Shown here piece by piece: positions 16,540 through 62,756 of a DNA stretch of 64,000 nt. A program made the translations under genes and the position numbers. Numbering within the stretch: the first letter of the stretch is position 1; each line of letters opens with the position of its first letter. The stretch comes from Anniella stebbinsi. Its lineage: Eukaryota; Chordata; Lepidosauria; Squamata; Anniellidae. The notes under the pieces were generated by a model. That model made no database searches and was not told where the DNA came from. It saw nothing but the letters and a program-made list of their open reading frames with translations. Location of the stretch: assembly GCA_029215795.1 (NCBI GenBank), contig JARDYH010000005.1:160295814-160359813 (forward strand), written 5' to 3'.

Positions 16540-16845
16540 CGCCAAGGGTGATTAGGCTGGTGAGTACAAGGCAGAGGACCTTTTCAGTGGTGGCCCCAAT
16601 CCTCTGAAATCAGCTTCCATCAGGGGTTCATTAGGCTCCTTCGGTGCAGGTCTTCTGGAAGGCGAAAGACCTGCTTAGTTTTGCTGATCTTTTCATAATC
16701 TGCGGGCTGTGGGTTTTATTGATGTAATCTGCTTTTATAGGATTTTAATAGTACTTTATTGCATACTTATTTATTGCTTTTCTGTGTGTTTTAACATATT
16801 TTTGTGTTGATTTTATCTTGTACACCGCCTTTTACATGCTGGCCC
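16540..16845 (+). repeat. L2-like 3' tail
   Basis: AGGACCTTTTCAGTGGTGGC to TTGTACACCGCCTTTTACAT; an older L2 tail just before the long L2 copy. Confidence 0.5.
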
Positions 16846-16852
16846 CAAGGAC

Positions 16853-18782
16853 ATGGTAGAACCATCTAAGGCCCGCTGTAATACATTTGCTGGGCACTTC
16901 CAGAATAAAATCTCTGGCATCCATCAGGACTTAGACTCCAGTGTTATAGCAGATGAATCTAGTGAGGTATCCAGAGCACAGGCTTGTCCTGTTTTCTTGG
17001 ATGAATTTCAGTTGGTGCAGCTCGAGGATGTTGACAAGGTGCTTGGACAGGTTCGTGCAACCACTTCCATATTGGATCCTTGCCCCTCTTGGCTAATAAA
17101 AACTAGCAGGGATGGAACAACTGGCTGGGCCAGGGAAGTGATTAATGCCTCTTTGCAAGAGGGAGTGGTCCCAGGCCTCCTGAAAGAGGCGGCAGTGAGA
17201 CCACTCCTAAAGAAATCTTCCCTGGACCCTGAAAATCTTAATAACTACAGGCCAGTAGCAAATGTTCCATTCCTGGGCAAGGTCCTGGAGCGGGTGGTTG
17301 CGAGCCAGCTCCAGGCACTCTTGGATGAGACTGATTATCTGGATCCATTTCAGTCGGGTTTCAGGCCTGGTTTTGGTACGGAAACAGCCTTGGTCGCCCT
17401 GTATGATGACCTATGTCGGGAGAAAGACAGGGGGAGTGTGACTCTGTTGATTCTCCTTGATCTCTCAGCGGCTTTCGATACCATCGACCATGGTATCCTT
17501 CTGGCACGACTGGCTGAGTTGGGAGTGGGAGGCACTGCATTGCAGTGGTTCCGCTCCTACTTGGTGGGTCGGCTCCAGAAGGTGGTGCTTGGGGAACATT
17601 GCTCGGCCCCGTGGATTCTCCAGTATGGGGTTCCGCAGGGGTCAGTTTTGTCCCCCATGCTGTTCAATATCTACATGAAACCGTTGAGTGCAGTCATCCG
17701 GAGTTTTGGAGTGCGTTGTCATCAGTATGCTGATGACACGCAGCTCTATTTCTCCTTTTCATCTTCATCAGGCGAGGCTGTGGATGTGCTGAACCAGTGC
17801 CTGGCTGCGACAATGGACTGGATGAGGGCTAATAAACTGAAACTCAATCCAGACAAGACTGAGACGCTGTTGGTGGGTGGTTCCGCTGACCGGATGGAGG
17901 GTGTTCAACCTGTTCTGGATGGGGTTGCACTCCCCTTGAAGGAGCGGGTTCGTAGCTTGGGGGTTCTCCTAGAACCATCTCTGTCACTTGAGGCGCAGGT
18001 GGCCTCAGTGGCACGGAGTGCCTTCTACCAACTTCGGTTGGTGGCCCAGCTACGTCCCTATCTGGACAGGGATAACCTGGCTTCAGTTGTCCATGCTCTG
18101 GTAACCTCCAAATTAGATTACTGCAATGCACTCTACGTGGGGCTGCCTTTGAAGGTGGTTCGGAAGCTGCAGCTTGTGCAAAATGCAGCGGCCGGATTGA
18201 TAACTGGAACCAGTAGGTTCGAACATATAAGACCTACTCTGGCCCGCTTGCATTGGCTGCCTGTATGTTTCCGAGCCCGGTTCAAGGTGCTGGTTTTAAC
18301 CTATAAAGCCTTACGCGGCTTGGGACCACAATACCTGATGGAACGCCTTTCCCGACATGAACCTACCCGAACACTACGTTCAACATCTAAGGCTCTCCTC
18401 CGAGTGCCTCCTCCGAGGGAAGCTCGGAGGTCGGCAACAAGAGAGAGGGCCTTCTCTGTGGTGGCTCCCTAATTGTGGAACGATCTCCCCGACGAGGCCC
18501 GCCTGGCGCCAACATTGTTATCTTTTCGGCGCCAGATCAAGACTTTCCTCTTCTCTCAGGCATTTGGCAATATCTGAGGAGCCTGGGTTTGTTTTGTTTT
18601 GTTTTTGTAGTTTTTTGAAGTGTTGAAGTGGTTTTTAAATGTACAGATTGTGTGTATGTTGTATGTTTTTGCTGTTTTAATTTTTGTATATTGTTTTTAA
18701 TTGTTTTTAATCCTATGTAAACCGCCCAGAGAGCTTCGGCTATGGGGCGGTATACAAATGTAATAAATAAATAAATAAATAA
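16853..18782 (+). pseudogene. L2-clade LINE, reverse transcriptase and 3' end
   Basis: A 539-codon frame runs from 16853 to a TAA at 18470-18472. It holds the RT domain: NYRPVANVPFLGKVLERVV (motif 1/2), FQSGFRPGFGTETAL, LDLSAAFDTIDH (catalytic Asp), GVPQGSVLSPMLFNIYM and YADDTQLYF (catalytic pair), then the L2-type C-terminus LARLHWLPV. There is no endonuclease domain upstream, so the element is 5' truncated. The frame should continue: the minus-strand sister copy has CAA (Gln) where this copy has TAA. The 3' end carries the squamate L2 tail, with AAACCGCCCAGAGAGCTTCG followed by (AAAT)n at about 18,760-18,782. Confidence 0.9.
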
Positions 18783-20303: not shown

Positions 20304-20448
20304 TCACGTCGTTCTGCATCCAGCATGGTTCCTGTCTCTTCTTTTCACTCTGCGGCTGCACAGCCATTTCTTCTTGACTGAACAGTCGGCGCTGCTCACA
20401 ACCCCATTGCTCAGGTAAGCGCAGCGTTCGTCTCCTTCCACTTCAAAG
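20304..20448 (-). CDS. C-type lectin-like domain, exon 3 of 3, with stop codon
   Basis: Starts after CCTTTGCAG, phase 2 in. Encodes GDERCAYLSNGVVSSADC and then KKKWLCS, supplying cysteines 4-6 of the CTLD; the C-terminus is a basic tail of about 15 residues ending in TGA at 20306-20304. CLEC2 proteins usually end soon after the last cysteine, so the tail RRVKRRDRN... is slightly long. The carbohydrate/Ca2+ WND motif is missing. A possible poly(A) signal in this orientation lies at 19149-19144. Confidence 0.85.
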
Positions 20449-22680
20449 CTGCAAAGGAAGGTGGGCCACATGGGAATGAACAACTTTGTCTATCACATGT
20501 CTCCTTCACATTCCTAACAGAAGTGCTCAAGGAGATATACACAGAACCTTAAAGAGCAAAAGAACAGTAATACAACCCAATAAGCCACAATTATAAATAT
20601 ATTTTTAAAACAACACTAAAAAAAAGGGGGAGTACAGAATCTCCACCAATCATAATTCTCAATGAAGTCCAGCTAATGAGAGCAAACGTGGTACGATGTA
20701 TACATGAAAGGGACCAAATTAAACTCTCCCTCAGGAGGGAATTCTTCCAGTTCGTGGGTGACACAACTTAGAAGGCCCCGCTGGATGTTACTTTTGCAAT
20801 GGATGAGATGTATGGCAGTACCTCGATCTGAAGCCTAAGGACATGGGAAAGTAAATATGGAAAAAGTGCTCCCAAAGGCATGACTGCAACATCATTGATT
20901 TGTATGCATGAATGGAGCATTCCAGCTATACCACCTTAGATGGAACTTCCATATCACCTCAAATGAGGTGGAAGGAAGTATTCCTGAAGACTAGGAGCAT
21001 TTTCCATCTAAAAGGAATGCCGAGACAGTTGACACAATTCAATTGTCAGAGGATGTTTTTAACTAATTAATTAATTAAAATGTGTGCCTTTGTCCAGAAA
21101 CGTTGACTAAAATAATGAAAAAGTGTACATGCCAACGGAAATGGTTTCAGGATGCGTTTCCTGCACTATGTTATGAACGATTTTCCAGTTACTGACTTCT
21201 GGTAGTGGTAGTAACCACAAGAGGGCTTTTTATGTCATTCTTGGATATTAAGGATACCCAAATCCCCAGTCTCTCTAGTGAGTGGGTGCTGTGCGTGTTC
21301 ATGCAATCAATAGCCAGTAATCAAGAGTACAATATAACCAAATGCAGAAAAATGAGGTGACGCCCACACAAATGTGAACAGGCCAGAGTGCGGTAGTCAC
21401 TCTAAAAAGAAGTTCACCTCAAAGGCTAATCTTTGTTCCATCGTTTCTGTTGGCTTTTAGAATAAGTAGGTTCCCATCCTGTGGCGGTGGTGGAGCATTT
21501 TACAGGACAGTAAAAAGGAAACCTGAACTTCCCCTACACTGGTGCACCATACATTCACAATGGCATATATAACAGACATTATTACCCACAGGAGAGAGTT
21601 CAAATGCACAGTAGAACCAACATGGAATTTTTATACTTGAATTAGGAATTGATCTAAATCAGGGGTGTGGCCCCAGATATTGTTGGTAGGGATGTTGGAA
21701 AAATTTGAGATAGACCAAAATGGATTTGGATTTCCAAGAATCGGACCTGTGGATCGGCCTCTCCAGGTCACGTAGAATCCATGGACTTCCAGATTTATTT
21801 ATTTTTTACTTCTCCTGAAATTTACACAAATTCATTTGCACGAAAATATGCAAGTTTCTGCAGAGACATATGCCACGCTGGAAAATATAAGCTGGGAAAA
21901 CTCAGATGGAATGGAAGACAGTACTCTAAATGTTACGTACTAACATAAATTATGTAAATTGTTGCAAACATCCTTATGGAATTTTTTGCATATTTTACCG
22001 GATAACGAGGGGGGGGGGAGAATTCAAATCTCTCTGTGAACGAATGCCAGATGAACAATGCTACATAATCCACAAAACACACGCAGAGTGTATTTTTAAA
22101 AATCTGGACATTCCCTAGATATTCGGCTCTGCTTCACATCAGCCCTGGCCAGCATGACCAATGGTGAGGGATGATGGGAACTGCAGTCCAACAACATCTG
22201 GAAGACCACTGGTTCCCAAGTTCTGATCTAAAGCAAACTTCACCTAAACTTCACATATAGAAACATCCTTGAAAGAGAGGAAAGTAAGAATCTGCAATGA
22301 ATCAGACCATTGGTCCATCTAGTCTAGTGTTGCCAGCTCTGGCTGGCAGTGGCTCTTCAGAGGCCTTTGCCCATCACCCTCTACCAGATCCTTCAAGCTG
22401 GAGATATGGGAATTGGATATGGAACCGTTTGCATGCAGAGAATGACCTCTACCAATTGAAGGTACAGTCTCTTCCTTTGGATTTCGATCTTTTCCATAAA
22501 ACAGAAACAAGTCAAACTTGAGTTGAGGAAATCAGAACTCACAGCTTGTTGAAGATGGTCCCATCAGGCCATTTCCAGCTCTCCTTTGTTTCTCTGAGGA
22601 GGCCAATCCAGTGGTTCAGGGGGCCTTTGTCATGCACTGCAACGTTCTGACGATTTAAAAAAGAAAGAGAAACTGGGTGG

Positions 22681-22749
<69 letters not shown>

Positions 22750-25700
22750 CTGGATTTTCCACATTTAGGGTTGCCAACTGACCTGACCAAAAATGGCATG
22801 ATTGTTTGTTTATTTTACCTCTGGGCTAGATGCCATGTGTGTTTGCATGCAAAATCAGAACTTGGAGCTGGTTCCCATGAGGTTTTGAGTAAAGCTGGAA
22901 AATCAGCAGCATAATATCCACATAGAACACAGAAAGCTGCCTGATATCAGACTTTGTTCCTGTAGTCCCATTTATTCTGCTCTGGCTGGCAGCCACTCCC
23001 AAGTATCTCAGATGGACGAACATCCCAATTACACCTGCTACCTGATCCTTTTCACTGGAGATGCCAGGCCTCAAACCTGGAACCTTCTGCATGCAAAGCA
23101 TCCCCTCTCTCACCACTGAGCTATGGCCCCTTCTCTACATCATTGAATGCACACACTCTAAGGATCTTGGTTCTTGTTGAGTTCAGACCCAGTGCATCAT
23201 TCCGCATGCTGCTGCATGAGAGGCTGCAGTGTGTGCGAGTGCTTCCTCGGTAGCCACCCCTCTCAATTTCTGAAGCCAAGATTGGCACTGGTAGAGCAAC
23301 CTGGCAGTGGCAGCTATGTGGCACAGCACTTCCAGCCCCATGCAGTGATTTTAACGGGGCTGCGTGGTATCATCCAAACACCACACTGGGGTGGATAGGT
23401 GGGTGGGTGATCTAAAACCTGGCCAAATGAACTGAAACTTGGTATGCAAGTTCCCATATAACTGTGAAGAACCCATGAAAAGAACCCATGGTTTGTTGTT
23501 GGGTTGTGAGCTGTGGGATGTTTGTGCCTAACAAGCCATGGTCTGTTAGCATGGCTGGGTTCGGATAACATGACAACCCATGTTTCAACAGCAACCCAAT
23601 GGTCCAATGATAACCCTGAATCAACTCATACTCAATCATTGAGTGTGGGTTATCTTACTGTGTCAACCCAGTCATTCTGTCTTGTGTGCACTTCCACACC
23701 CTATCCCTACACACACACACCATTTATCAGCCACTTACTCACCTTACACTCTGAGTTGCACATCCATCCAATTCTCTCCCTCCGCCCCACTCCAAAGCCT
23801 GATTGCCATGCAGGGAGTGATTGGAATGGGTGGGGGAATGCAGCATGCAGAGAGAGGAGGGTTAGCCCTTTCCTCCTCAACAATGACTCTCTGAACATCA
23901 CCTCCACGTCACAATTGACATAAATTAAAAGGGGGGCAAAGGTGATCCAAAGGTGCCAGAGGCTGGATGTTCCTAAGGCTGGCTTACAGCTTGAGTTTGA
24001 GAACCTTCTGGTAGATGTTGCCAGTTGTCTAAGCGCCTCTTCGCTTGTTGCTAAAATGGTGGAGGGTGGTGTTCCTTAAAGCAAGGAATAGTTTTATGAT
24101 GTACCAACTTCCGCACTAAAAACACTGGAGACGGAGCACCAACTGGAACAGGGCAGGCTGTGCAAGCTGCTTGCAGCACACAAACGACATGCAAAAGAGC
24201 TAAAGGACATTTAGCAGCCCAGAGGGGAACAGTTGACAAACGACACCTGGCCTTTATTTGAGGCAAATCATAAATCAGGGCCAGATCTACACTTTGTGTC
24301 AAATCCTTACAATCCCATCATGGTAACGCTATATCCCTCTTGCGCGTTTATACCTCGGAGGACACCACCTGGGTTATGTGGAATAAAAAACAGGAAATAG
24401 CATGATGAAAGCCGTATATGGAATGCGTCATGTGCCCCCAAAGTGTATCAGTGCACTTCAATACCGCTATGAAGCAGGAGTGTAGATCTGCAAACACGCC
24501 AGTTTGGGTACAATACCAGGTTAGTGAGTTCCTTCTCTTACCAGTTTCTCTAAGTTTTCAATCACAGCCAGGGAGGCACCAAGCGAGGAACAGTGGTGCT
24601 GGCCGGCAACCCAGTCCCCTTCCAGTTCCACGACTTGATAGCAGTTCCCTTGGCTCATGATCCAGCCTGGTGCGCAACAGTGGGTGGCAGCGGACGCTGG
24701 CAGTTCAGGCTTCGCCCCTGATAATGAGAACCAATGCTTTTGTTGTTGTTACGGTTGTATTCCATCTATTTTTGAGGAGCTCGGGGGGCAAACAGGAGCA
24801 ATTCTCCTTTTGGATTCTCTCCTCCTCCTCCCCAAAGAAACGTCTAGCTGATCACAATGCATGCTATGTTGTCACGAGGCCCACTCCCATCAGCCGATGA
24901 CAGAAGAATGCTCAGCATGATGACATCACAAGTTAACGGATTGTATTACTCTATATGCTGAGGCGACACAGTGAGGCTCCTTCTGTTGGCCCAGCTGGGA
25001 CCACCTGGCTCCTTCCTTCCTTCCTTCCTTCCTTCCTTCCTTCCTTCCTTCCTTCCAGGACGGTCTTCTGCTATGGCCATTCCACCTGGTCATTATATAA
25101 CTTCATCATGTAACAGTAGGAAAGACTTGAATAGGAATATGTAACAAATTATCACCTACAAATGAAATACCATTACATAGTCATTGCAGGGGACAGTTCT
25201 AGGAAGGAAAGATCGTAGACTTAGGTTCCAGGATAATCATTTTCATTTTATTTATTGTTGTTTTTATATTCTTGTCCCAAAATGAGCTCATGCTACTTTC
25301 AGATAAAAGTGAAGCAATCATTGTTTGTTCCTCAGTGGTTTATTTGGATACCACAATTACTTTCACCATCATACATGAGTGGCCTGAATGAACTCAGACG
25401 GGTATGTAGGATGTTTCTGTTGCAAAACCATTCAAGAATTTTCATTTGACACTGACATCAATTCACATTTGGATATTTTAGGATGTGCAGCTAATGTTTA
25501 CCAAAGTTATCATATTGCATGGGTGGGAAGGGGACAACATTGAAAGAATTTATTCACTAAGCATTAAACTTCATATTTTTCTCCCATGCTCACAGCCTGC
25601 AAAATTCTACAACATTATTTTTTGCAATTACTTCAAATTGTCAAATGATGTATTGGCTTTGTGAGAGGAGAGAACTAAAAATCTTTTGTTTCTTTAATTG

Positions 25701-28700
25701 TTCACTGCTCCGGAATCTGTCTAGATGTGGAACGGTATACAAATGTAAACAAAATAATAAATAAACAAAAACTCAGCTGTCCTAAGTTGGGTGAATGGTA
25801 CATGCTGTTCTTCCTGTGTGGCTTTACAGGACTGTAAGGAACACCCATGATCTCTTCAAAAAGCACACATGTTAGAAAGGGTGGTTCCACAAATGTAAAC
25901 TCATAACAAAATATACACACTTGCCATTTTCATAGGCATGTGTGAAGCTGTGCTAAATATTTGGTTAAACAAAGCAACTGTAGGGAATGGATATTGACCT
26001 TTTTAATGGGAATTCCTACAGTCCTGTAAACTGGATTTGTTGAACTGCACAGTTGTTCTCTACTCACTAGTAAAAACGAAGATGGTCGTGGCCAAGCCCG
26101 CAATCTGGATGATGAACAGTACCAGAACGATCCATGTGGTTCGGCCCCTGGAGTTTGACAGCCTGCCTGCAAATAGGGAACATAGTATGCAATTTAAATA
26201 AAGTTATCCTAATTACTTGGTCGGTTGTTCTGGGGACCAACGCCACAACCCAGAACCCCAGAGGGCCCAGAGGAACAATCAGAACTCTGTAGATAAGCTT
26301 TTTGGTCCCAGTCACTTTCGTGATATGGCAAATTCTGCGCATGTGGAGCATCATGTGGTGAACCAGCACCAAAGGCTGCAACTCAAAGTTGTCCAAGCAC
26401 ACCGTAAGTCCATCGCTGGCTATGATAAGAGGGAGCTCTGCAGCACTGGTGCCTTTCTCCTGTTTTTGCCAACAATTACCGGAGAGCCTAAGGAGGGTTT
26501 TTTCTTACCTACAGTGGCTAGATCTGGCTCAGTGCAGAGGTCCCTAAGATGGCACCGGTGGGATCCATTGTACCTGTAGGGACCTCCAACGGCACCTGTG
26601 AAGCCCTCCACTCTGTGTCCTTCTCAAAAAAAATCTTCAACAAAATTCTTGAAAAACTTTGGGCGCCAAATTCTCCTTCCTGTTCCTGAACCTGCTGCTA
26701 ATCAGCTGTTCAGTGGGCAGACAGAGAAAGGAGGTCTTTCTGATCCAGCTGATTCTTCTTCTACCTCCTCCTCCTCCTCCTCTTCCTCCTCTTCCTCCAT
26801 GTCAGTCTTGGATGCTGCTCAGGGTTGGAATCAAGACAGTTGAACCCAGACTGCACCACAAATCCAATTCCACTATAGCTGGTACCCCTTGGGGCTGGTG
26901 GGGCAGAGGGTAGGTGGATATCACTGGAGGTGGACAGGAGCAAACGTACTTAGTTGTGGTGCGGATCTCTCTACCACAAGCAACTGGGAGACAGGCCTCA
27001 TTTACCCCAAATATAGAGCCGCCTCTGTTGTAGAGTTACATACAGTATTTCTCCATCTACACCAAGAAACCACAAAAGTAATAATAAAGGAGACAGGAGA
27101 ACTGATGAAAAGTAACAATTTGGTCTTCCATATATGCAGCTTTGAGGAGAGAGACAGCATCAGTCGGTGCAGTGAAGAGGCCTTAAGCTTCTAATTTAGG
27201 CTGACCATATGAAACGGAGGACAGGGCTCCTGTAACTTTAACAGTTGTTGAGAAAAGGGAATTTCAGCCAGTATCATTTGTATGCAATTAGTTCCTGGTG
27301 AAATTCCCTCTTCATCACAGCAGTTAAAGTTGCAGGGGCCCTGCCTTCTTTTGTATATGGTCACTCTAGTATAGTGCCTGCACCTTTAACTGTTGTGATG
27401 AAGAGGGAATTTCACCAGGAACTAATTGCATACAAATGACACCGGCTGAAATTCCCTTTTCTCTACAACTGTTAAAGTTACAGGAGCCCTGTCCTCCTTT
27501 TCATATGGTCAGCCTATTCTAATTGCCAAATGCTGGTGACAAACTGTTCGTTCATTCGTTCGTTCTTTATTTTCAGCCAACAGGCCAAACATCTGGTGAC
27601 AAACTGGTGTTCCGAAGCTCATCCAGCCGTGCATTACATTGCAAAGCATCTTACCTTCTTCCTTGTTTTCTGCCACATTTTCGTCCCACTGCTCAAATGG
27701 TACAAGCTTATCTGTATCGTCCTCATTCCCATCAAGGGTCTCTATTTTGAAGAACAGACAGAAACAGACAGTGAACTCGCTGAACCAGTCATAGCCCTAG
27801 AAAACCCTTTCTCCGGATGGATTTCCTAATCCAGATGCCTTTCCCTCACCTGCCTCCCTTCAGTCATGTTGAACTACAACTCCCATCATTCACAGTCTCC
27901 ATTGCCAATGGCTGTTCTGGCTAGGGGTGTTGTTCAACACACCTGGAAGGTGGCAGGGGTTGGAGGGGAAAGACTGTTCTAATCAGCTCTAACAGGTCTC
28001 AGACGGAAAGTACTAAGCAGTGGGGGATCATATATGAGCTAGGGCCAAACTCCAATCTGGAAAAGGTCTTGGGGCCCCCATTCCATCTGTGGGCAGGGCC
28101 AAATGGAGAAGTAGGCAGGGCCAAAGCATTTCTTGCCAAGTTAAAGCCTATTCCGAAGTAAGCCGTCAAGGCCTCTGCATATGTACTCAGGACTGAATCA
28201 CTCAGCAGAAGTTTCAAATTGCATCCCAATCTCTGCATGTCTACTCAGAAGTAAGCATGAGCAGCATGACTACTCAGAAGTAAGCAGAACCAGCTTCTCC
28301 TTATCTACTCAGTAGTAAGTGGGATAAGTAGGACTGCACTTCCAAATAGCTACACTTTCGAATACCATCCATATACCAAGCCCCTGTGTGTCTACTCAGA
28401 AGCAAGCAGTATAGTAGTAAGCTCTATTAAACTCAGCAGCGCTCTTGTCTGAGTAAGCGTGCATAGCATTGCACTGTGAGAAAACTTTGAAAGCATGCTT
28501 CGGAATTAGCATTGTTTGCCTAAATCTGCTCGCTTGCTACTTGTTCAGCTGTACCTTTAGAAAAAACAGATATTACAAAACATGCTCACTCCACTACAGT
28601 CCGGGACCATTAGTGCAAGGAAAAAGGCTCCTGTGCATGGATCCTTAGCTGGTTGTGGGGCTTTGGGTACAAACAGGTGTTGCATGTGAGATTTCCTAGC

Positions 28701-31700
28701 CTGATCTGACAGCCAGGAACGTACATGGATCAGTGGAGGCTGGTGGCTCTGATATCAGTTGGGTGGTGAATCCTCTATGGGTTTTAGACCTTTATCACAC
28801 GGGCGGTTTGATCCACACCCGTCGCAACTTTGATCCAAAGCCAGAGCCAGTCAGAATTCTAAAGGAGCTACTCAAGGTGATGAAGTCTATTCCCAAAATG
28901 GGTTCAGCAGATTCACCACCCCACTGACATTGCAGCGACCAGCCTTCAGTGACATGTATAGTCCTTTGTTAAAAGCTGAAATCACACTGGTCAAATATGT
29001 GTACATGTGTGTGTGTGTGTGTGTGTGCATATGTATTCTGTCCCCCCCCCCCTTCCCCAAACAGCCAATGGGTGCAATTTTATCTCCCTTATGAAGGGCT
29101 ATGCGTGCATATGATTGGATCGGGATCACTAAGTCTGGATTTTTCTTGTACTTGATGGAGTGTGAAACCATAAAATAGATAAGCTACCCTCTTATTTCCA
29201 AGCTTTTATGTAATATTGGCCAGACATTTTGCTGCAAGGTATCACCAGTTATGCATTTTGGATCAAAATAATATGTTGATCTTGCAAACCTGGTCGAGGC
29301 CACACTTCCTTACCTTTCCCTTTGAAGGCAGTCTCCGTGTTCGAGTAGCCTACAATGCCAGGATTGGTTGGCATTGATTTTGGAAAACCGTCCTCACACC
29401 TGCAAAGAAAAAAAAAAAACCTCCAAAATTTACGCTACAAAATCAGAGTCTGAGTTTTAAACAATACCTCACTGAAGAATGTTAAAACAATGACATTTTG
29501 AAATGGCACAGTAATATGATCCAATTTATTATTTGTAGGCTGCTTCTCCTCAAGGAACTCGTGCTTCCAAAAACAACTCCCAAAAGATAACACCAGTAAT
29601 ATCATTTGTAAAAATTGCAGATAAATAATTATTCAGTCAATACACAGTCTCAATGAATTATCCCCATAGCAATGTAACAACATCAAAATGTAAGAATATG
29701 CTAATAAATGATTAAATAATAAAAAAAATTAAGAATTCAGAAGCAGTCACAATATTTTTATTTCTTGTCTATGCAGAACTATACGATGAGTGTCTGCTTG
29801 ACTAGCTGTCACAACTTGATGGATTTGACCTATTTTCCTTCCAGGAAAATGCCAGAGCAAGAAGAAGATCAGCCTGGCCCTGGCTACCAGCCGGAGAAGC
29901 AGCAGCTGCCGGGAGTTGACTTCTCACCTCTCTCCCTGATAGAAAGAACATGATGCTCTGACAGCCAGTTTCCCTGGGATTGCAGGAATGAGAGGAATGA
30001 CTCCCTGGAGGCTGACACCAGCCAGAGGAACGAGGGCTATTGGGCTGGTTTTCTCCTGCTACCACAGCAAGGAGAGGACCAGCTTGGCCCCAGCCATCAG
30101 CCAAAGAACGAAGAGTCGAGGGGAGTTTCTTTCCCTTCTCTCTACCAGAAAAAAAAACTCAGGTCCAGCTGCTAGTTGGGGAAGGAAACTCTGGCTGCAG
30201 CTGCCGGCCAGAACCGCCAGCATGGAGGGTGCTATTGCACTCAGGTCCTGCTTGTGGGTTTCCCATGGGCAGCTGGTTGGCCACTGTGTGAACAAAATGC
30301 TGGACTAGATGGACCCTTGTTCTGATCCAGCAGGGCTCTTCTTATGTTCTTGCAGCCTTCCCAAGCCTGGGGCCTCCAGATGTGTAGGACTAATTCTACA
30401 GCCAGCATTATGGGAATACTAGTCCAACACATCTGGAAGGCCCCAGATTGGGAAGTCTGGGGCAGCAGAACAAGGGCTGATGGGAAGAGAGGTTCTTTTG
30501 GAGGGTATTGTGATATGGAAAGCCAGCGTGACATAGTGGGATTTGGGAGATCTGGGTTCTAGTTCCCACTGGGTGATTTTGGGCCAGTCACTGACTCTCA
30601 GCCCAACCTACTTCACAAGGTTGTTGTGAGGATAAAATGGAGGAGGGGAAAGACTCCATAAGCTGCCTTGGGTTCCTTGTCAGAGGAAAATAGCTAGGAT
30701 ATAAATGTAATAACAAAAAAAATATGTTGTAAACTGCTTTGCAGATCATTCAATTGAAAGGTGAGGTTTAAATCTCCAAAATAAGCAATAAATAATCTCT
30801 CCCCATCATGATGGTGCTTTAGAGGAGGTACTTACCCACTCAATGGGCTTCCAGTCCCCTAGACAGTGTGGAATAAGAGAGAGAAAACACACATTTCATT
30901 AATTTATTCCAAAAAACGACCAAATAAGAATCAACAGCTTAGTTTATATACAGTAGGTCTGTTCACAAAATAAAAGGGATCTGACTTGATTCGCCAATGA
31001 ATGAAAAATGATTGTCAAGCGGGGGGGGGGGAGTATTGCTTACAAATGATGTCACAAGAAGGTCCAACTCTGCAGCTGATCAGATGATTCAATGAACACA
31101 TGAGGAGGGAGCAGGACTTCACTCCCAAGCCCCGCCCCCAATGTTGATGTACCCATTGACCACGCCCCTTTGATGGCTGTGCAAAAGCTTTAGTTTGAAA
31201 AGACCCTGTGCCTGTAGGTCTTTCCCAATGAAGGCTTCTTTCTCATAGTGACGAACTGTGCTTGGCTGTACACCGGGCTTCTTTAGATTAAAGGGAAACC
31301 GTGTTTGCTTACTGTCTTCCTCTGCCACTATTGTAATGAGCTGAATTACATAGGAGAGGGATGACCATGTAGTCTGTAATTGAAAACTTCCCTGCGGATA
31401 TACTTGAATGGGACAGCACCCTCTAGTGGGTGTTTTGTAGCGCAACTTCCCCTGCACACAGTAGGAAACCCCAAGATATGTCAGAAGAATCGGGACATCC
31501 AGGATTCTTTTAGAACAGAATAACCAGGGGAAGGTGCGGGAGATGTGCAGGAGGCTCACAATGTTGTCAAAATGACTCGCAAACTTCCGTAAGTGGCCAG
31601 TCACGAGCGTGCTATAGATTGCTCGTTGAAAGAAGCCCACTCTTACAGCCCTTTCAGACTAATGCTGTAGAGAGGGGTGCCAGAAATGGAGGTCCAACAG

Positions 31701-34343
31701 GCATGTTAGCATCAGGACAGGGCTCCCCCTCCATTCCCCCTACCCTCACAAGTTCACTGATCATGTAGGGACATTTTGTCTGAAAGTTTCATTAGAAGAG
31801 ACACTCTCTTTTGTGTGAAAAAAAGGAGAATGCCCTTTCCTCATTTTTTTTTTTTACTTGCTGGTTATAGCCTTTTTTTCCTGATGTTTTATTTGCTGTT
31901 TGACCTTGCTAATTTGTTTTATTGTAGTTTAATGTTTTATATTGTAAGCTATCTTGAAGCCGTCTTGAAGGAGGAGCAGAAATTCAACAAATAAATCATA
32001 TATATATATAACCCACACCACTCCTTAGTTCTTCCCTGAGTGACCCTTTGCAGTCCATTATCAGAGTACTATGGAATACTGTCTTGGATTAGGGAATAAT
32101 AAAAGATTGCTACGGAGAAAGAAGAACAAAGACAAATATCTGGAGGAAAAGAACTCCTTATTGTGGGGTTTTACTTGCTGGCTCTGCTCTTTTTCCTGCT
32201 GTTTTATTTGCCATTTTACCTTGCTTGTTACTTTTATTGCCCCACCCCACTTCCCTGGTTCTTTCCTGAGTGACCCTTTGCAGTCCATTATAACCATCAT
32301 CACATGGGGGGAAATTGCATTTGCTTCCCATCGCTTCTCTGCCTGCATGTTTGTCCCTCTTTTGAAAGAGGAAATAAACAACGTGCATGTGGCCCATTCA
32401 GTGGGCCATTTTGATCCCGCTGCTCCTCCTGCACACAGCAGGAGATAGAGGCAACTTCCGTCTTTAAAAATAAGTCAGACTTACTGGGGTGGATTTTTTG
32501 TGGCACGAAGAAGGCTAAAAGGGGCAGGAGGCGCACGGGAGGCAGACAACGTGAGAGGGACCCGCAAAAATCCGTACGTGCCCAGTAATGAGCGTCTGAT
32601 GGAGCTCAAGCAAACCTGGGATGGGCCACCTGCAATTACTCAGAATACTATGGGATACTGACTTGGATCAGGGAATAAAAAAAGATTGTTGCGAAGAAGG
32701 ACGAACAAAGACAAATATCTGGAGGAAAACAACTCCACATTGTGGGAATTTCAGTGGAACGATAGTGTAGGGAAAATGTTTAACCCCCTCCACTCCATGT
32801 CACACTTTCAACAGGGATCTTCTGTGGCTCAGGGCTGCGCCCACCATGAAGCAGAATGGGGCTGCTGCCTCAGGTGGCAGATGCTGGGGGCAAGAGGAAG
32901 GCAGAGAGTGGTGACCAGGGCCAGATCTACACCAAGCAGGATATAACACTTTGAAAACGTTCTGGAAACGATATATGGAGTGTGTCCTGAATGTGAACTG
33001 TTGTCAAAACCGTTATAAACTGTATTAAAGCGGTAATGTAGCTCCTGCCCAGGTGTTGGCGAATGGAGCTGTTTGTGCCATGCAGCCTGCTCTAAACCAC
33101 CCAAGTCAGGTTGCTGCCCTCAAGTACAGCGGGGGATACTGTCTCATTGCTGGTGGAAGTTAGATTTAACTACCAGTCTGGTGAGCTTCTGTACAGTCTT
33201 TTCCTTTGCCTCAGGCAGCAAAATGTCTTGGGCCAGCCCTGCTGTTAGTTTGAATTTGTTTTGTTTCCAAGGTGAGGTGGAAGTCACAGCTAGACAGTTC
33301 ATGATTCTTCTTCAGAAATGATTTCATCCATATGGATTCCAGCTGATGCCTTTTACAGTTTTATAGGCAACAGGTAACATAACATATGTTTGAGCATTTA
33401 TCTATTTATTTTGACAATGCTTTGTGCTGTTTATGGTACTTTGTTCTAAACATTTACTCTAATTCATTTGCTTTGGCTCATGGCTGAAAGACATGCTCCA
33501 AATTAAATGCTGCATGCAGGAAATTCTGCTTTTTTGAGTGAGGAGAGCAGTCCAGCCTCTCCCAACCTGGTGCTCTCCAAATATGTTGGACTGCAACTCC
33601 CATAATTCCCAGCCAGCATGGGCCTTTTGGGCAGTAGCACATTTCTTTCCAATATGGTGCCAGTGAGGAAGCAGGGGCTAAAGGGTTGGTCGAATTCTGA
33701 TGCTACAGCTGCGCATTGTCGGCATTATTGATGCCTAGGCAGCCTAGCCTCACAGCTGGACTACTATATTGTGCCTCTCGGGGAGCTGCCCTTGAAGACT
33801 GTTCAGAAGTTTCATTTAATACAGATACTGGCAGCTCACCAAATGAAAGGATGTTATACCAGTGCTTGTGCATTTGCACTGGGTTGACTTCTGGGCACCA
33901 TTCTGGTGAAGATTTTGACCTACCTGATTTTCTGTCATTGCTGCCTGGTTTCTGGGAACCACAGTGTGTGACACATGATCCCAGGATTTTCGGCAGACTG
34001 AACAAAGGGGTGTTTGATCCTCCACGCAGAAGAGATTTAAGGCTTCCTTGTGTATCTTACACACACATTCAGCTGGCTGTTTAGTTTCATCTACAGTCAT
34101 CAATCTGGTAGTATCTGCCATTTTCTCAAGAGGTTCTTTAGAGCCAGGTTTACTTTTCAGAAAAATGTCTCTGCAGCTGGAGCAGGTTATTTTCTCCTTT
34201 AGTTCTTCTCCCCAGGATCGGCTGGAACAGGCGTGACAAAACTTGTGCCCGCAGGGATGAGTGGTTGGGTTTTGACAAGGCTCCCAACAGATCGAACACA
34301 GCGTTTCTCCCTTGGGATAGTTTGGCGAGTCTACATCTGCCAT
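20304..34343 (-). CDS. Candidate seven-exon RING/B-box - TM - C-type lectin locus (TRIM-like plus CLEC2-like)
   Basis: Exons in transcript order: 34343-33924, 30858-30836, 29399-29314, 26166-26068, 24717-24542, 22646-22543, 20448-20304. Every exon has an AG acceptor and a GT donor, and junction phases agree throughout (0/0, 2/2, 1/1, 1/1, 0/0, 2/2), so all seven read as one frame of about 350 residues. Order of domains: RING, B-box, short linker, one membrane span, CTLD with six conserved cysteines and a stop. The last four exons are a standard CLEC2/LLT1-type type II receptor; the first two or three look like TRIM exons. Known: TRIM genes normally have 96-bp and 231-bp coiled-coil exons between the B-box and the 23-bp exon, and often a PRY/SPRY exon at the end; none was found here. 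Because both missing exons are multiples of three, their loss would keep frame. Alternative: two separate genes, a remnant TRIM and a CLEC2-like gene whose first exon is 29399-29314 or undetected. Single-transcript status is inference. Confidence 0.45.
20449..22142. other. Last intron of the CLEC2-like gene, no recognised element
   Basis: Unique-looking sequence with a poly-G at about 22,010-22,018 and a minor (TTAA)n at 21,062. No exon with usable splice sites was noticed. Confidence 0.45.
22290..22480 (-). repeat. tRNA-derived SINE fragment, minus strand
   Basis: Shares the inverse of the 50-kb SINE body (GACCATTGGTCCATCTAGTC and CTGGAGATATGGGAATTGG) and the CTGCATGC spacer near the B box. 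The head is degraded. Confidence 0.6.
22543..22646 (-). CDS. C-type lectin-like domain, exon 2 of 3 (WIGL exon)
   Basis: 104 bp, phase 0 in and phase 2 out, with AATCGTCAG acceptor and CT|GTGAGT donor. Encodes KGPLNHWIGLLRE then SWKWPDGTIFN. The HWIGL core and W.W.DG motif are diagnostic of the CTLD fold, and KGP.(D/N)HWIGL is close to human CLEC2D/LLT1. The calcium-binding EPN/QPD loop is absent, as in NK-complex lectin-like receptors that bind proteins rather than sugar. Confidence 0.85.
22683..22746. repeat. (AT)n(CAT)n compound microsatellite
   Basis: AT run followed by about 10 CAT units, 40 bp from the CTLD exon 2 acceptor. Confidence 0.9.
22940..23137 (-). repeat. tRNA-derived SINE, minus strand
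   Basis: Inverse B box (CTCAAACCTGGAACCTTCTG) and inverse A box (CCACTGAGCTATGGCCCCTT) are both present. In the intron between CTLD exons 1 and 2. Confidence 0.7.
23440..23690. repeat. Repeat J (AACCCATGG-type)
   Basis: Words AAGAACCCATGGTTTGTTG, GTTGGGTTGTGAGCTGTGGG and GGATAACATGACAACCCATG. Similar text at 34,565-34,710. In the intron between CTLD exons 1 and 2; probably a hAT-type MITE. Confidence 0.5.
24277..24492. repeat. MITE family E (GGGCCAGATCTACAC ends)
   Basis: Begins GGGCCAGATCTACACTTTG and ends GGAGTGTAGATCTGC. In the intron between CTLD exons 1 and 2, just beyond CTLD exon 1 donor. Related to copies at 32.9 and 41.2 kb. Confidence 0.6.
24542..24717 (-). CDS. C-type lectin-like domain, exon 1 of 3 (CLEC2-like)
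   Basis: 176 bp, phase 1 in and phase 0 out, bordered by ATTATCAG and CTG|GTAAGA. Encodes a short stalk, then CCAPGWIMSQGNCYQ, the classic first strand of a CTLD, then GDWVAGQHHC and GASLAVIENLEKL, matching the helix where most CTLDs read C...GA.LA.I. Cysteines 1-3 of the fold are present, with one extra cysteine next to the first that could make an interchain bond (inference). No stop or frameshift. Confidence 0.85.
25014..25058. repeat. (CTTC)n microsatellite
   Basis: About 11 units of CTTC in the intron between TM and CTLD exons. Confidence 0.9.
26068..26166 (-). CDS. Transmembrane exon of CLEC2-like receptor
   Basis: 99 bp between a TATTTGCAG acceptor and an A|GTGAGT donor, phase 1 in and phase 1 out. 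Encodes a basic juxtamembrane stretch (RLSNSRGRTT) then about 21 hydrophobic residues (from WIVLVLF to TTIFVF), typical of a type II membrane anchor with positive charges on the cytosolic side. Phase 1-1 is the usual phase of this exon in NK-complex lectin genes. Joined to the next exon it completes an arginine codon. No charged residue lies inside the span, so no sign of adaptor pairing through it. Confidence 0.8.
26755..26800. repeat. (TCC)n-like microsatellite
   Basis: Imperfect TCC/TCT run within an intron. Confidence 0.75.
27197..27516. mobile_element. Palindromic hAT MITE, family A
   Basis: Terminal TAGGCTGACCATATGAAA and matching inverse end. Exact 8-bp target duplication TTCTAATT at 27189-27196 and 27517-27524. 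Sits in the intron between the transmembrane exon and the 86-bp exon. Confidence 0.9.
28730..28955. repeat. MITE family G
   Basis: TCAGTGGAGGCTGGTGGCTC mirrored by GCGACCAGCCTTCAGTGA; in the intron upstream of the transmembrane exon. Confidence 0.6.
29314..29399 (-). CDS. 86-bp linker exon (TRIM exon 5 or CLEC2 cytoplasmic exon)
   Basis: Flanked by a pyrimidine-rich run ending in TTTGCAG and by an AAAG|GTAAGG donor. Enters in phase 2 and leaves in phase 1, encoding about 28 residues beginning CEDGFPKS. It can be read as the exon following the 23-bp exon in TRIM genes (usually nearer 115 bp) or as the cytoplasmic tail of a CLEC2-like receptor: the MPTNPG stretch resembles the PANPG of human LLT1 tails. 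An internal methionine (residue 9) could start a 194-residue receptor, but its context is weak. Open in one frame with good splice sites. Confidence 0.6.
30222..30350 (+). repeat. CR1 LINE 3' end fragment
   Basis: GAGGGTGCTATTGCACTCAG through GGCTCTTCTTATGTTCTTG; same 3' block as the other CR1 ends. Lies in the intron between the 86-bp and 23-bp exons. Confidence 0.65.
30355..30470. repeat. Palindromic MITE family F
   Basis: CTTCCCAAGCCTGGGGCCTC and its mirror ACATCTGGAAGGCCCCAGAT; in the intron between the 23-bp and 86-bp exons. Confidence 0.65.
30518..30718 (+). repeat. MIR/CORE-like SINE
   Basis: Head GAAAGCCAGCGTGACATAG, then GGTGATTTTGGGCCAGTCAC and CAAGGTTGTTGTGAGGATAA, ending GATATAAATGTAATAAC. 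Resembles the vertebrate MIR-type core and a widespread squamate SINE. Confidence 0.7.
30836..30858 (-). CDS. 23-bp microexon, TRIM exon-4-like
   Basis: A 23-base segment lies between a CTGTCTAG acceptor and a near-perfect G|GTAAGT donor. Read in phase 0 it gives GTGSPLS plus two bases of the next codon; joined to the next exon the text runs ...PLSGCEDG. Established knowledge: TRIM genes of the RING-Bbox-coiled-coil-SPRY class carry a 23-bp exon encoding a similar LSRCE-like stretch with phases 0 and 2, exactly as here. The segment is very short, so chance is possible; length, phases and residues together favour a real exon. Confidence 0.5.
31110..31700. repeat. Possible repeat with a 173-codon open frame
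   Basis: The minus-strand frame (31640-31119) has no recognisable domain and lacks coding-like composition. Its 31,575-31,630 part (GTAAGTGGCCAGTCACGAGC) resembles repeat H, so I read it as transposon sequence rather than a gene. Low certainty. Confidence 0.35.
32055..32745 (+). repeat. Repeat H cluster with 105-bp direct repeats
   Basis: Two copies of ...AAGAACAAAGACAAATATCT... (32,055-32,165 and 32,635-32,745) bracket a repeat-H copy (32,380-32,615). Lies in the intron upstream of the 23-bp exon. Arrangement suggests a tandem or nested element. Confidence 0.55.
32922..33052. repeat. MITE family E, copy
   Basis: GGGCCAGATCTACACCAAGC, AGGATATAACACTTTGAAAA and AATGTAGCTCCTGCCC. Confidence 0.6.
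33548..33625. repeat. MITE family F, half copy
   Basis: TCTCCCAACCTGGTGCTCTC to CCAGCCAGCATGGGCC. Similar half copies lie at about 910-985, 1525-1625, 15985-16040, 22143-22214 and 27845-27965. Confidence 0.6.
33924..34343 (-). CDS. TRIM-type RING finger and B-box exon
   Basis: 140 codons from an ATG with a strong start context (G at -3, G at +4) to a CAG|GTAGGT donor, ending in phase 0. RING at about residues 15-60: CSIC, then CGHKFCHAC, then CSSC, giving the C3HC4 zinc-ligand pattern of E3 ubiquitin ligases. B-box type 2 at about residues 94-130: CKIH, FC, CSVC and the paired histidines HVSH. Five bases upstream of the ATG is an AG acceptor after a pyrimidine-rich run (34349-34380), so the 5' UTR is split, as in many TRIM genes. 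No coiled-coil or SPRY exon was found downstream on this strand. Zinc ligands are all present and there is no stop, so the exon is not visibly decayed. Confidence 0.85.
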
Positions 34344-38539: not shown

Positions 38540-40355
38540 TTATTTATTTATTTATTTATTACATTTGTATACCGCCCCATAGCCGAAGCTCTCTGGGCGG
38601 TTTACATAGGATTAAAAACAATTAAAAACAATATACAAAAATTAAAACAGCAAAAACATACAACATACACACAATCTGTACATTTAAAAACCACTTCAAC
38701 ACTTCAAAAAAACAAAAACAAAAAAAAAACAAAAAAAAAACAAAAAAAAACCTACAAAAACAAAACAAAACAGACCCAGGCTCCTCAGATATTGCCAAAT
38801 GCCTGAGAGAAGAGGAAAGTCTTGACCTGGCGCCGAAAAGATAACAATGTTGGCGCCAGGCGGGCCTCGACAGGGAGATCGTTCCACAATTGGGGAGCCA
38901 CCACAGAGAAGGCCCTCTCTCTTGTTGCCGACCTCCGAGCTTCCCTCGGAGGAGGCACTCGGAGGAGGGCCTTAGATGTTGAACGTAGTGTTCGGGTAGG
39001 TTCATGTCGGGAAAGGCGTTCCATCAGGTATTGTGGTCCCAAGCCGTGTAAGGCTTTATAGGTTAAAACCAGCACCTTGAACCGGGCTCGGAAACATACA
39101 GGCAGCCAATGCAAGCGGGCCAGAGTAGGTCTTATATGTTCGAACCTACTGGTTCCAGTTATCAATCTGGCCGCTGCATTTTGCACAAGCTGCAGCTTCC
39201 GAACCACCTTCAAAGGCAGCCCCACGTAGAGTGCATTGCAGTAATCTAACTTGGAGGTTACCAGAGCATGGACAACTGAAGCCAGGTTATCCCTGTCCAG
39301 ATAGGGACGTAGCTGGGCCACCAACCGAAGTTGGTAGAAGGCACTCCGTGCCACTGAGGCCACCTGCGCCTCAAGTGACAGAGATGGTTCTAGGAGAACC
39401 CCCAAGCTACGAACCCGCTCCTTCAAGGGGAGTGCAACCCCATCCAGAACAGGTTGAACACCCTCCATCCGGTCAGCGGAACCACCCACCAACAGCGTCT
39501 CAGTCTTGTCTGGATTGAGTTTCAGTTTATTAGCCCTCATCCAGTCCATTGTCGCAGCCAGGCACTGGTTCAGCACATCCACAGCCTCGCCTGATGAAGA
39601 TGAAAAGGAGAAATAGAGCTGCGTGTCATCAGCATACTGATGACAACGCACTCCAAAACTCCGGATGACTGCACTCAACGGTTTCATGTAGATATTGAAC
39701 AGCATGGGGGACAAAACTGACCCCTGCGGAACCCCATACTGGAGAATCCACGGGGCCGAGCAATGTTCCCCAAGCACCACCTTCTGGAGCCGACCCACCA
39801 AGTAGGAGCGGAACCACTGCAATGCAGTGCCTCCCACTCCCAACTCAGCCAGTCGTGCCAGAAGGATACCATGGTCGATGGTATCGAAAGCCGCTGAGAG
39901 ATCAAGGAGAATCAACAGAGTCACACTCCCCCTGTCTTTCTCCCGACATAGGTCATCATACAGGGCGACCAAGGCTGTTTCCGTACCAAAACCAGGCCTG
40001 AAACCCGACTGAAATGGATCCAGATAATCAGTCTCATCCAAGAGTGCCTGGAGCTGGCTCGCAACCACCCGCTCCAGGACCTTGCCCAGGAATGGAACAT
40101 TTGCTACTGGCCTGTAGTTATTCAGATTTTCAGGGTCCAGGGAAGATTTCTTTAGGAGTGGTCTCACTGCCGCCTCTTTCAGGAGGCCTGGGACCACTCC
40201 CTCTTGCAAAGAGGCATTAATCACTTCCCTGGCCCAGCCAGTTGTTCCATCCCTGCTAGCTTTTATTAGCCAAGAGGGGCAAGGATCCAATATGGAAGTG
40301 GTTGCACGAACCTGTCCAAGCACCTTGTCAACATCCTCGAGCTGCACCAACTGAA
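38540..40355 (-). pseudogene. L2-clade LINE, second copy in inverted orientation
   Basis: Near-identical to the copy at 16.85-18.78 kb. RT frame at 40350-38785 runs without interruption through YADDTQLYF and LARLHWLPV to the natural C-terminus ending QAFGNI. It is 5' truncated further downstream than its sister: homology ends at about 40355, matching base ~17010 of the other copy. Only a few amino-acid differences were seen between the two translations (for example R/G and A/T changes). The 3' tail has an expanded A/T-homopolymer run at 38706-38770, then the usual AAAT repeat. Cannot transpose on its own, lacking the 5' part. Confidence 0.9.
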
Positions 40356-40514
40356 ACCTGTGCCTTTACAGGGGCTTTTGCTTCCAGATTCTTTGCAGGA
40401 TTGTGGCCAGCTTCTTTACATGTGTTATATTCCTTAGGGGTTGTCTTTCTGTGCTTTTCTATGCGTTCCATTACACAAGCACTAGGTGGCACTGCAGAAT
40501 AGCAGAATTGCCCT

Positions 40515-57070: not shown

Positions 57071-57340
57071 TAGGAGCACCTTGCCCAGGGCTGGAAATGA
57101 GTCTGAAACCTCATGCCAAGTGGTTATATGCACACTATAGTAGGTTATTATTACTTTTATCATTGTACGATATGACACGGGCCCACTGGATGCAAAGATG
57201 GGGAGAGTGGTTAGAAAAAGATATACTTTGCACATAGCTGACTCCATAAGGCAGCCATTTAGAGTCCCGTCCCCCCGCGCCAAGTAGCAAAAGGCCTAGC
57301 GCCCTCACAAAGCCTTAATTCTTTCTCTCTCTCTTTACAG

Positions 57341-57948
57341 AGCAGGCAAGAAGGCTGCAGGCTGCATAAGAGGATTCTCTATTTTGTGCTCGCACTCTGG
57401 CAGGTTAAGGGGAACCATTGCAGTCCACGGAAATTTGTATGTTCCCGTGAAGTTAATCATGGCACTTTCAGCCATGACTGCAAGAGACAAAAGGGTTGAA
57501 GAAAGTGTCAAGCTGCACTTTAGAAGAGGAATATGGGAGTTAGCCACTATAGCCAGATGTCTGGTCAGAACCAAAAAGGACCACACAGTTTATGCGGAGA
57601 TAAGGGAGCATATTGAGAGAGCATCTGTAGAGCTTGCCACCGCAGAAGTCTTGGCTCAACGAGAACTGGAGGGAGTGGATTCAGAGGGCTTGAAGATGAT
57701 GGCCTTGAAGAAGGAGCTCACAGATGCACAGAAGAGAAGACAGGAGGAACTAGCCACGTTACAAACTGCTCTGAAGGGCTTGGAAAAAAAGCTAGGGGAA
57801 AGCTGGGAGAATATTAAGTGTCAGAGAGCCATGAAGGAGGAGACTGAAGAGAAGCAAAAGATTGCTGAAGCTGAAGCTGGAAAACAACAGAGTGTGAAAA
57901 CTGGTGCTCTGTGGTCAATGCTGATCCCAGTCGTGGGAACTATCATTG
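57341..57948 (+). CDS. Coiled-coil gene, exon A
   Basis: Acceptor TTTCTCTCTCTCTTTACAG ends at 57340. ATG at 57459 gives 163 codons plus one base. The protein is rich in K, E, A and L, with heptad-like spacing from about residue 65, and ends in the hydrophobic WSMLIPVVGTIIG segment just at the donor. Without splicing the frame reads on to a stop near 58,028, but the perfect donor makes that unlikely. Confidence 0.7.
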
Positions 57949-62091: not shown

Positions 62092-62756
62092 GTGAGCATG
62101 GGGGGCAGGCAATGCTCAACACCCCCCCCCCATAAAAAGAGCTATCCAAAAGTTGAAGCGCTCCTTTGAGCCCCAATATATTTTGCCCAATATTTTCTAC
62201 GACATACAAGACGATCTGCTAGATGAAAAGGGAAGCCATTGGCGTTTTCTCCTTTATTTCATGATATTTTTTTCTTTTTCATGGCAATTTTCTTTTCTGC
62301 CATTAGGTTTTCCTGGATTTACTTGATTTGCTTAATCATTCTTTTTATTTTCACAAAAACTCCCAACAGAAAAAGCCATACAAACATAAAAGCACAGAAA
62401 AATGTAATTACCTAGGAATGGATTATATCCCTTTTCAGATCCATCTATTTGGGATGTGATGGGATATTTAGGTTTCCCCCCTTTGTTTCTTTAAAAGCTA
62501 GTATAGTGGAGTGCAGTGGATAAGAACTGAACTAAAAGTAACACTTTTAACTACCACATCAATCTTTAAAAAACAAAACAAACAACCCCCCCCAAAAAAA
62601 CTTAATAATCACAAATTGTGCGGAAGGGGGATTCATTGGTAATGTAGTGAGTAGGGAGGGGAGTCTTAATACATTCCTTTTCCATTGTAGTCTCCATACC
62701 CCACCCATAGCTCCTTTTCATGCCTTAACATACCACTTTCATGCTTTAGGATGCAT

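Follow-up and report, generated by a model that had tools for sequence, protein, structure and literature searches.

A candidate RING/B-box membrane lectin gene in Anniella stebbinsi, probably derived from an old fusion of a TRIM gene and a CLEC2-type receptor gene

The 64-kb stretch of Anniella stebbinsi DNA analyzed here (the window), which is part of the chromosome-size contig C5 of a 1.89-Gb genome, very probably contains one real gene whose predicted product combines a RING, a B-box, a transmembrane helix and a C-type lectin domain. For the explanation favoured here, an old fusion of a TRIM gene with a CLEC2-type receptor gene, we estimate a probability of about 0.75; the ligand-gated ligase mechanism proposed below is rated considerably lower. 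An earlier sequence-only reading had suggested that a single transcript encodes such a type II receptor. This suggestion is supported by predicted proteins with the same domain order in squamates, turtles and, without the RING, in the alligator, and it is further backed by hydropathy and flanking charges fitting an N-inside orientation as well as by an intronless contig of 1,835 bp.

The gene comprises eight coding exons on the minus strand, and all seven introns show GT...AG borders. After splicing, the frame remains open from the ATG at position 34343 to the TGA ending at 20304, yielding a product of 379 residues. Exon A (33924..34343, 420 bp) contains the ATG, the RING (C16..C57) and the B-box (C95..H126) and exits in phase 0, while the short exon B (30836..30858, 23 bp) leads from phase 0 to 2. 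Exon C (29314..29399, 86 bp, phase 2 to 1) has a TRIM-linker-like start and continues as a cytosolic linker with a YxN motif. It is followed by exon D (27655..27741, 87 bp, phase 1 to 1), which encodes an acidic cytosolic segment, and by exon E (26068..26166, 99 bp, phase 1 to 1) with the single transmembrane helix. Exons F (24542..24717, 176 bp), G (22543..22646, 104 bp) and H (20304..20448, 145 bp, ending with the TGA) are CLEC exons. From A to H, the joins have the phases 0, 2, 1, 1, 1, 0 and 2, which match at all seven joins. The seven same-strand exons of the sequence-only reading were all found in place, on one strand and with AG/GT borders, but exon D (27741-27655) had been missed, so that the exons number eight. 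Likewise, the phases agree throughout as had been claimed, but over seven joins instead of six, and the transmembrane exon, although its phases had been read correctly, does not directly follow the phase-1-leaving exon C, as exon D intervenes between C and E.

Phase agreement alone is weak evidence, since a single join of a TRIM-type to a CLEC-type part would agree by chance in about one of three cases; it is the comparative evidence, i.e. relatives covering the full chimera and the co-occurrence of B-box and Lectin_C, that lifts the chimera above chance. Because exon D has 87 bp and the phases 1-1, the frame survives with or without it. Gecko models either contain the exon D stretch (P0014, 306 aa) or lack it (P0020, 274 aa; P0018), and, judged from such models, exon D is probably a cassette exon. 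The YxN motif of exon C, which we take to be of the SH2-binding type, is present in the window, Rhineura, Sceloporus, Anolis, Podarcis, Zootoca, Pogona and Varanus; in the respective column, the snake rows show F, and the gecko and skink-like rows have no Tyr. In a search of the own genome, exon A proved to be single-copy, with a 100% match here and, among the matches listed, at most 39% identity for other near-whole-exon matches and at most 51% for short partial ones. The lectin exons are single-copy as well; 11 other matches showed 34-57% identity, and ten of these lie at C5:158.8-159.7 Mb.

Domain annotation of the 379-residue protein revealed RING-type Pfam matches within residues 13-59, where PF00097 alone exceeded its cut-off (21.3 vs 21.0 bits), a B-box (PF00643) at 94-130 with 33.3 bits (cut-off 24.1) and a Lectin_C domain (PF00059) at 274-363 with 44.3 bits (cut-off 22.6). 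A SPRY domain was not detected in this protein by Pfam. Based on a motif check, the RING is complete with all eight zinc ligands, and the B-box has its complete ligand set. By sequence, the N-terminal 140 residues are similar to solved modules of TRIM21, TRIM72 and TRIM39, and LLT1/CLEC2D and CD69 are the best PDB matches to the remainder of the protein. Neither the EPN, QPD or WND motifs, which are the classic calcium/sugar motifs, nor an N-glycosylation sequon occur in the window protein. Comparing the individual segments, mean pairwise identity was highest in the helix (78.6%; 21 rows), followed by the B-box (65.4%), the lectin domain (62.4%), the RING where present (54.5%) and residues 131-177 (41.7%).

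Hydropathy peaks with 2.65 at residues 218-236 and does not exceed 0.94 elsewhere. The helix is flanked by four Lys/Arg on its N-terminal side and by two after it (including Arg239 at the helix edge); about 210 residues, including RING and B-box, precede it, and no signal-like N-terminus was found in the 379 residues. Hydropathy and flanking charges fit a predicted N-inside, type II orientation, which would place RING and B-box in the cytosol. Structure predictions were made for the Rhineura relative (P0001), not for the window protein. Based on a 52-row alignment, the P0001 model reached a mean pLDDT of 65.8 and a pTM of 0.35 and showed disordered linkers; block by block, pLDDT was 73-88 in the RING, 73-93 in the B-box, 56-87 in the lectin domain and 64-93 in the helix. 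The modelled helix covers residues 214-244, with central blocks at 91-93. As a prediction, this model is usable for the domains and unreliable for the inter-domain arrangement. The best Foldseek matches of P0001 were CD69 (E 6.1e-8) and LLT1 (E 6.5e-8), with target-normalised TM-scores of 0.59 and 0.60. A model of P0001 from a 27-row alignment was poor (mean pLDDT 41.1) and was set aside.

A search with the whole chimera across 5.8 billion proteins yielded 36 relatives. Six of them align over 98-100% of the chimeric sequence, with identities of 52-66%; they stem from Rhineura (P0001), Sceloporus (P0002), Anolis sagrei (P0003), Podarcis (P0004), Zootoca (P0005) and Crotalus (P0009). In a profile search, turtle proteins comprising RING, B-box, helix and lectin domain were also recovered (Gopherus P0037, Eretmochelys P0038). 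According to precomputed domains, B-box PF00643 and Lectin_C PF00059 occur together in 29 of 95 proteins when three protein searches are pooled. This comparison with relatives was the decisive test of the chimera. Models from Pogona, Phrynocephalus, Varanus, Liasis, Candoia, Notechis, Pantherophis, geckos, Emydura and Alligator start from the internal Met75 or later; they keep the linker, the helix and the lectin domain and, geckos partly excepted, also the B-box. The alligator form shows the same domain order without the RING. Throughout the set, the exon B-C linkers align; the models of Podarcis and Zootoca are without exon B, and one Phrynocephalus model is without most of exons B and C. 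Database names of the relatives include "tripartite motif-containing protein 5-like", "C-type lectin domain family 2 member D-like" and "uncharacterized", and nearly all of them are automated gene models, which are able to copy each other's errors. The bird matches of the chimera search (P0026, P0030-P0036) are without a B-box, which is not proof of its absence in birds. A protein search using words from residues 1-178 only gave five matches, of which four are full-length and one is from Varanus, without revealing the TRIM donor.

The contig P0011 (1,835 bp) carries the source tag "lgn", which was taken to denote assemblies of public reads. It is intronless, and its reading frame of 314 residues begins at the internal Met and ends with the C-terminus, spanning B-box to lectin end. 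Since the same span takes 13.8 kb in the window, this contig most likely represents a spliced mRNA, the alternative being a retrocopy. A turtle-like contig of 1,236 bp (P0041) begins close to the junction of exons A and B and runs through the lectin domain to its end, and a third one of 1,173 bp (P0060) runs from exon A into unmatched sequence and provides no splice evidence. Other transcripts may exist, because P0019, P0021, P0022 and P0023 carry different N-termini joined to exon B or later.

Exons A, B and probably C appear to be of TRIM origin and exons E-H of CLEC origin, given that exon 1 is kept, the coiled-coil exons are missing, a 23-bp exon of fitting phase is present and the exon B-C peptide scores as TRIM-like. 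In length and phase, exon B equals the 23-bp exon that follows the coiled-coil exons in TRIM genes. The sequence-only reading had pointed to such an exon followed by one leaving in phase 1, and both are indeed found as exons B and C. The score of the window exon B-C peptide against five TRIM junctions was reached by 2 of 2000 shuffles, and for ten family rows this number ranged from 0 (three rows) to 109/2000 (Alligator); in this test, the five TRIMs were chosen by pattern, P0065 among them looks mis-modelled, and the register of the ten family peptides was set by hand. As the DNA letters of exon B show no convincing homology to TRIM by eye, homology of this exon is argued from length, phase and position together with the exon B-C peptide. 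Tblastn with five TRIMs (P0061, P0063, P0065, P0074, P0086) and two turtle long forms detected neither a coiled-coil nor a SPRY exon in the window. In a control with an ordinary TRIM of the same genome, tblastn clearly finds the 231-bp exon and detects the 96-bp exon only at E 0.3-0.5, so that a lone 96-bp coiled-coil exon in the window could be missed. An ordinary TRIM at C5:156.86 Mb consists of a RING/B-box exon 1 and subsequent coiled-coil stretches of 96 and 231 bp; its candidate 23-bp exon (reading DVENALI) was chosen from 11 pattern matches, and a SPRY was not reached within 17 kb.

The relationship of the identified forms was analyzed using trees of both ends of the protein. When 39 lectin domains were placed in an unrooted tree, the 18 short-form rows included (squamates, turtles and alligator; a selection of those at hand, with Alligator P0025 and Carettochelys P0040 flagged as long branches) all split off together at 97/97. 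All 14 short-form rows of an unrooted RING/B-box tree (35 rows, six of them B-box only) also fall together at 100/99, as do all eight short forms with complete RING in an unrooted intact-RING tree at 99/97. Since the trees of both ends agree, there was probably one fusion before the squamate, turtle and alligator lineages split. In addition, turtles harbor long forms (P0043-P0048, P0050) of 533-578 residues with RING, B-box, a coiled-coil-like stretch, a hydrophobic stretch and a lectin domain, and several of these are found per species in Terrapene, Mauremys and Chrysemys. Based on their sequences, these long forms are possibly the product of an independent TRIM-CLEC fusion.

RING motifs were checked in 17 rows, comprising ten short and seven long forms. 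The set of eight ligands is complete in eight of the ten RING-spanning short forms (window, P0001-P0005, P0037, P0038), and Crotalus P0009 and Carettochelys P0040 have a broken RING; the long forms have a complete RING in all seven cases. Across the six RING-bearing squamates including the window, identity is 100% in the eight ligand columns compared with an average of 52% in the remaining 34 columns of the RING, a contrast that is partly built in because rows with a broken RING were excluded. Counting against the favoured explanation, Rhineura has Asn instead of Ile at the E2-facing position of the RING, and Sceloporus and Anolis carry Gln instead of the Arg that follows the last ligand. The B-box motif is complete in 22 of 31 rows. 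The nine misses comprise four models without the exon A stretch (P0019, P0021, P0022, P0023), the geckos P0012, P0013 and P0014 with the isoform P0020, and Carettochelys P0040. Overall, the motif fails in three of the four gecko species with spanning models, and it is complete in Paroedura (P0018).

An alternative explanation would be that a broken TRIM fragment neighbours a separate CLEC2 gene, which starts in or just before exon C, and that both were chained by gene predictors. Contig C5 carries both TRIM and CLEC genes, and PMC8813856 describes adjoining TRIM and CLEC genes in the chicken MHC. An in-frame ATG of exon C (29374-29372) would yield a type II lectin of 223 residues, and four models (P0019, P0021, P0022, P0023) begin past exon A or with a different N-terminus. 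However, the context of this ATG is poor by eye, the corresponding Met occurs in none of the 20 other aligned rows, and in 11 of the 21 rows the stretch from exon A to the helix contains no Met. The exon C ATG was rejected as a general start, as its Met is unique to the window among the 21 aligned rows. Moreover, the identical chain recurs in squamates, turtles and the alligator, contig P0011 reads through from B-box to lectin domain without introns, and a separate coiled-coil/SPRY end for the RING exon, which the sequence-only reading had named as the refuting alternative, was not found within the 64-kb window. With relatives, start codons and alternative TRIM ends examined, two separate genes are highly unlikely, and one continuous gene is clearly the preferred reading.

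Two further alternatives concern the history and the present state of this one gene. Instead of two fusions there might have been only one, with the turtle long form being ancestral and the lizard form representing the same gene minus the coiled-coil exons. Forcing short and long forms into one clade was not rejected for the lectin domain (p-AU 0.248) or for RING/B-box (p-AU 0.416), nor was a lectin clade of the long forms with the turtle/alligator short forms only (p-AU 0.133), and the lizard gene has retained the 23-bp exon. In the unconstrained trees, however, the long forms group with other CLECs and other TRIMs, away from the short forms, and we regard an ancestral long form as a serious option that falls somewhat short of even odds. 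It is also conceivable that the working protein is a B-box/membrane/lectin receptor, whose RING (in geckos also the B-box) is decaying and often skipped via Met75. This would be in line with the broken RINGs of Crotalus P0009 and Carettochelys P0040, with the fact that 14 of the 21 aligned rows begin no earlier than an internal Met located past the RING, and with the weak RING scores, PF00097 passing the cut-off in the window by just 0.3 bits. Nevertheless, the starts of the short models may be annotation choices, Met75 is absent in Anolis and Zootoca, and the window, five other lizards and two turtles have kept all eight ligands while the remaining RING diverges. A decaying RING therefore appears to be the less probable state, at roughly one chance in three. 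The protein of Anniella stebbinsi comes close to an even chance of being an active ubiquitin ligase, with a slight lean against it.

Clusters of TRIM, CLEC and MHC class I genes occur on contig C5. Of the 100 exon A matches listed, C5 harbors 94, and 92 fall in the interval C5:156.8-167.7 Mb, a count that includes the window. A cluster of CLEC-like exons is found at C5:158.8-159.7 Mb, 0.6-1.5 Mb from the window. Up to 175 kb beyond one window end, a RING/B-box exon and a PRY-SPRY exon lie 14 kb apart on the same strand and probably form one TRIM; an FHA gene and a tubulin gene are located on the same side and within the same distance, and Pfam confirms tubulin, FHA, RING/B-box and PRY-SPRY. 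We read this FHA gene as MDC1 and the frames 8 and 28 kb past the other window end as presumably CCHCR1 and TCF19. In the TCF19-like frame, FHA remains just below the Pfam cut-off, and the CCHCR1-like frame shows nothing over the cut-off. Class I matches are concentrated on C5 (39/44), the nearest one at a distance of about 15.9 Mb; the window is thus on the class I chromosome, yet not beside class I genes. TUBB is listed as one of five one-to-one orthologues across five amniotes in an Anolis MHC paper (PMC9679377), and PMC8813856 places TRIM and Blec-type lectin genes close together in the chicken MHC.

Within the window, two open frames at 57300-58025 (+) and 61596-62132 (+) encode 242 and 179 residues, respectively; both are coiled-coil-rich by eye and show no Pfam family above cut-off. 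Two long and very similar reverse-transcriptase frames lie in opposite orientation at 16811-18472 (+) and 38785-40365 (-), and another similar frame is located at C5:160109446-160110498. Recognised by eye, these frames are presumably parts of a non-LTR retrotransposon.

CLEC2 proteins are dimers, which present their lectin-like head to NKR-P1 receptors, and lectin-like NK receptors and ligands normally act via short tails or adaptors. TRIM RINGs generally must be brought together, normally via the coiled coil, and TRIM ligases are as a rule either soluble or attached by nothing more than a terminal membrane anchor. In the mechanism we propose, an old fusion would have joined a TRIM gene (A, B, probably C) to a CLEC2-type receptor gene (E-H). 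The protein would be a type II dimer in the plasma membrane with its N-terminus inside the cell, and its lectin domain may, like CLEC2D/Clr, recognise a protein on another cell, for which an NKR-P1-like receptor is the likeliest candidate. With the coiled coil gone, the receptor dimer could take over bringing the RINGs together, so that dimerisation or clustering on the outside would gather the cytosolic RING/B-box modules. Once gathered, these modules might ubiquitinate their own tail or a membrane neighbour and thereby set surface level or signal. Lineages with a broken RING could still use the B-box as an oligomerisation module. A ligand-gated ligase as described here is a tentative proposal, which we consider rather unlikely in this exact form.

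Comparing the window protein to known systems, its modules are familiar. In CLEC2 proteins, the cytosolic tail is short and devoid of domains. Like the members of this family (CLEC2D/LLT1, Clr, CD69; chicken Blec), the window protein carries a lectin-like domain after one helix and no calcium/sugar motifs, whereas its N-terminal part holds RING and B-box. Blec itself is located in the chicken MHC according to PMC8813856. With the MHC-linked, TRIM39/TRIM7-like TRIMs of subfamily C-IV, it shares RING and B-box in one first exon, the 23-bp exon and the TRIM-like linker start; in contrast to them, it has no detected coiled coil or PRY-SPRY, but a helix and a lectin domain instead. As far as its predicted sequence goes, the window protein is TRIM-derived and not a canonical TRIM. 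RNF43/ZNRF3 and GRAIL combine an ectodomain, one helix and a cytosolic RING. These are type I proteins with a C-terminal RING and a PA-type ectodomain, so that they would represent an analogue in function, unrelated and of opposite topology. TRIM13 and TRIM59 (subfamily C-XI) retain the coiled coil and are without a lectin ectodomain. Here, the likeness consists of RING and B-box on a membrane-anchored protein, and the difference is that no coiled coil was found in the window and that the helix is internal and followed by the lectin domain. Membrane-anchored C-XI proteins with RING, B-box and a C-terminal helix are described as a class in PMC10445537.

The sequence-only reading had called the architecture unfamiliar. 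In line with this, a full-text literature search, judged by titles and abstract starts, retrieved no description of a RING/B-box C-type lectin protein; the modules themselves are known. By its sequence relatives, the protein looks like an old, undescribed kind of cell-surface protein. More broadly, it might stand for a reptile-wide receptor class, in which an NKR-P1-ligand-type lectin outside gates a TRIM-derived ligase inside and dimerisation replaces the coiled coil, turtles having perhaps made this step twice, with the coiled coil retained; this wider view is speculative and, in our estimation, improbable as a whole. The finding matters as known modules are found in a conserved old architecture for which no description was found. 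A conserved protein with both modules would couple cell-cell recognition to ubiquitination in one molecule, and the chimera would give a tangible example of what the proximity of TRIM and CLEC genes around the MHC has produced. The complete RING in some lineages and the broken RING in others provide a natural experiment. Finally, reptile models currently called CLEC2-like, KLRB1-like or TRIM5-like include members of one unrecognised family.
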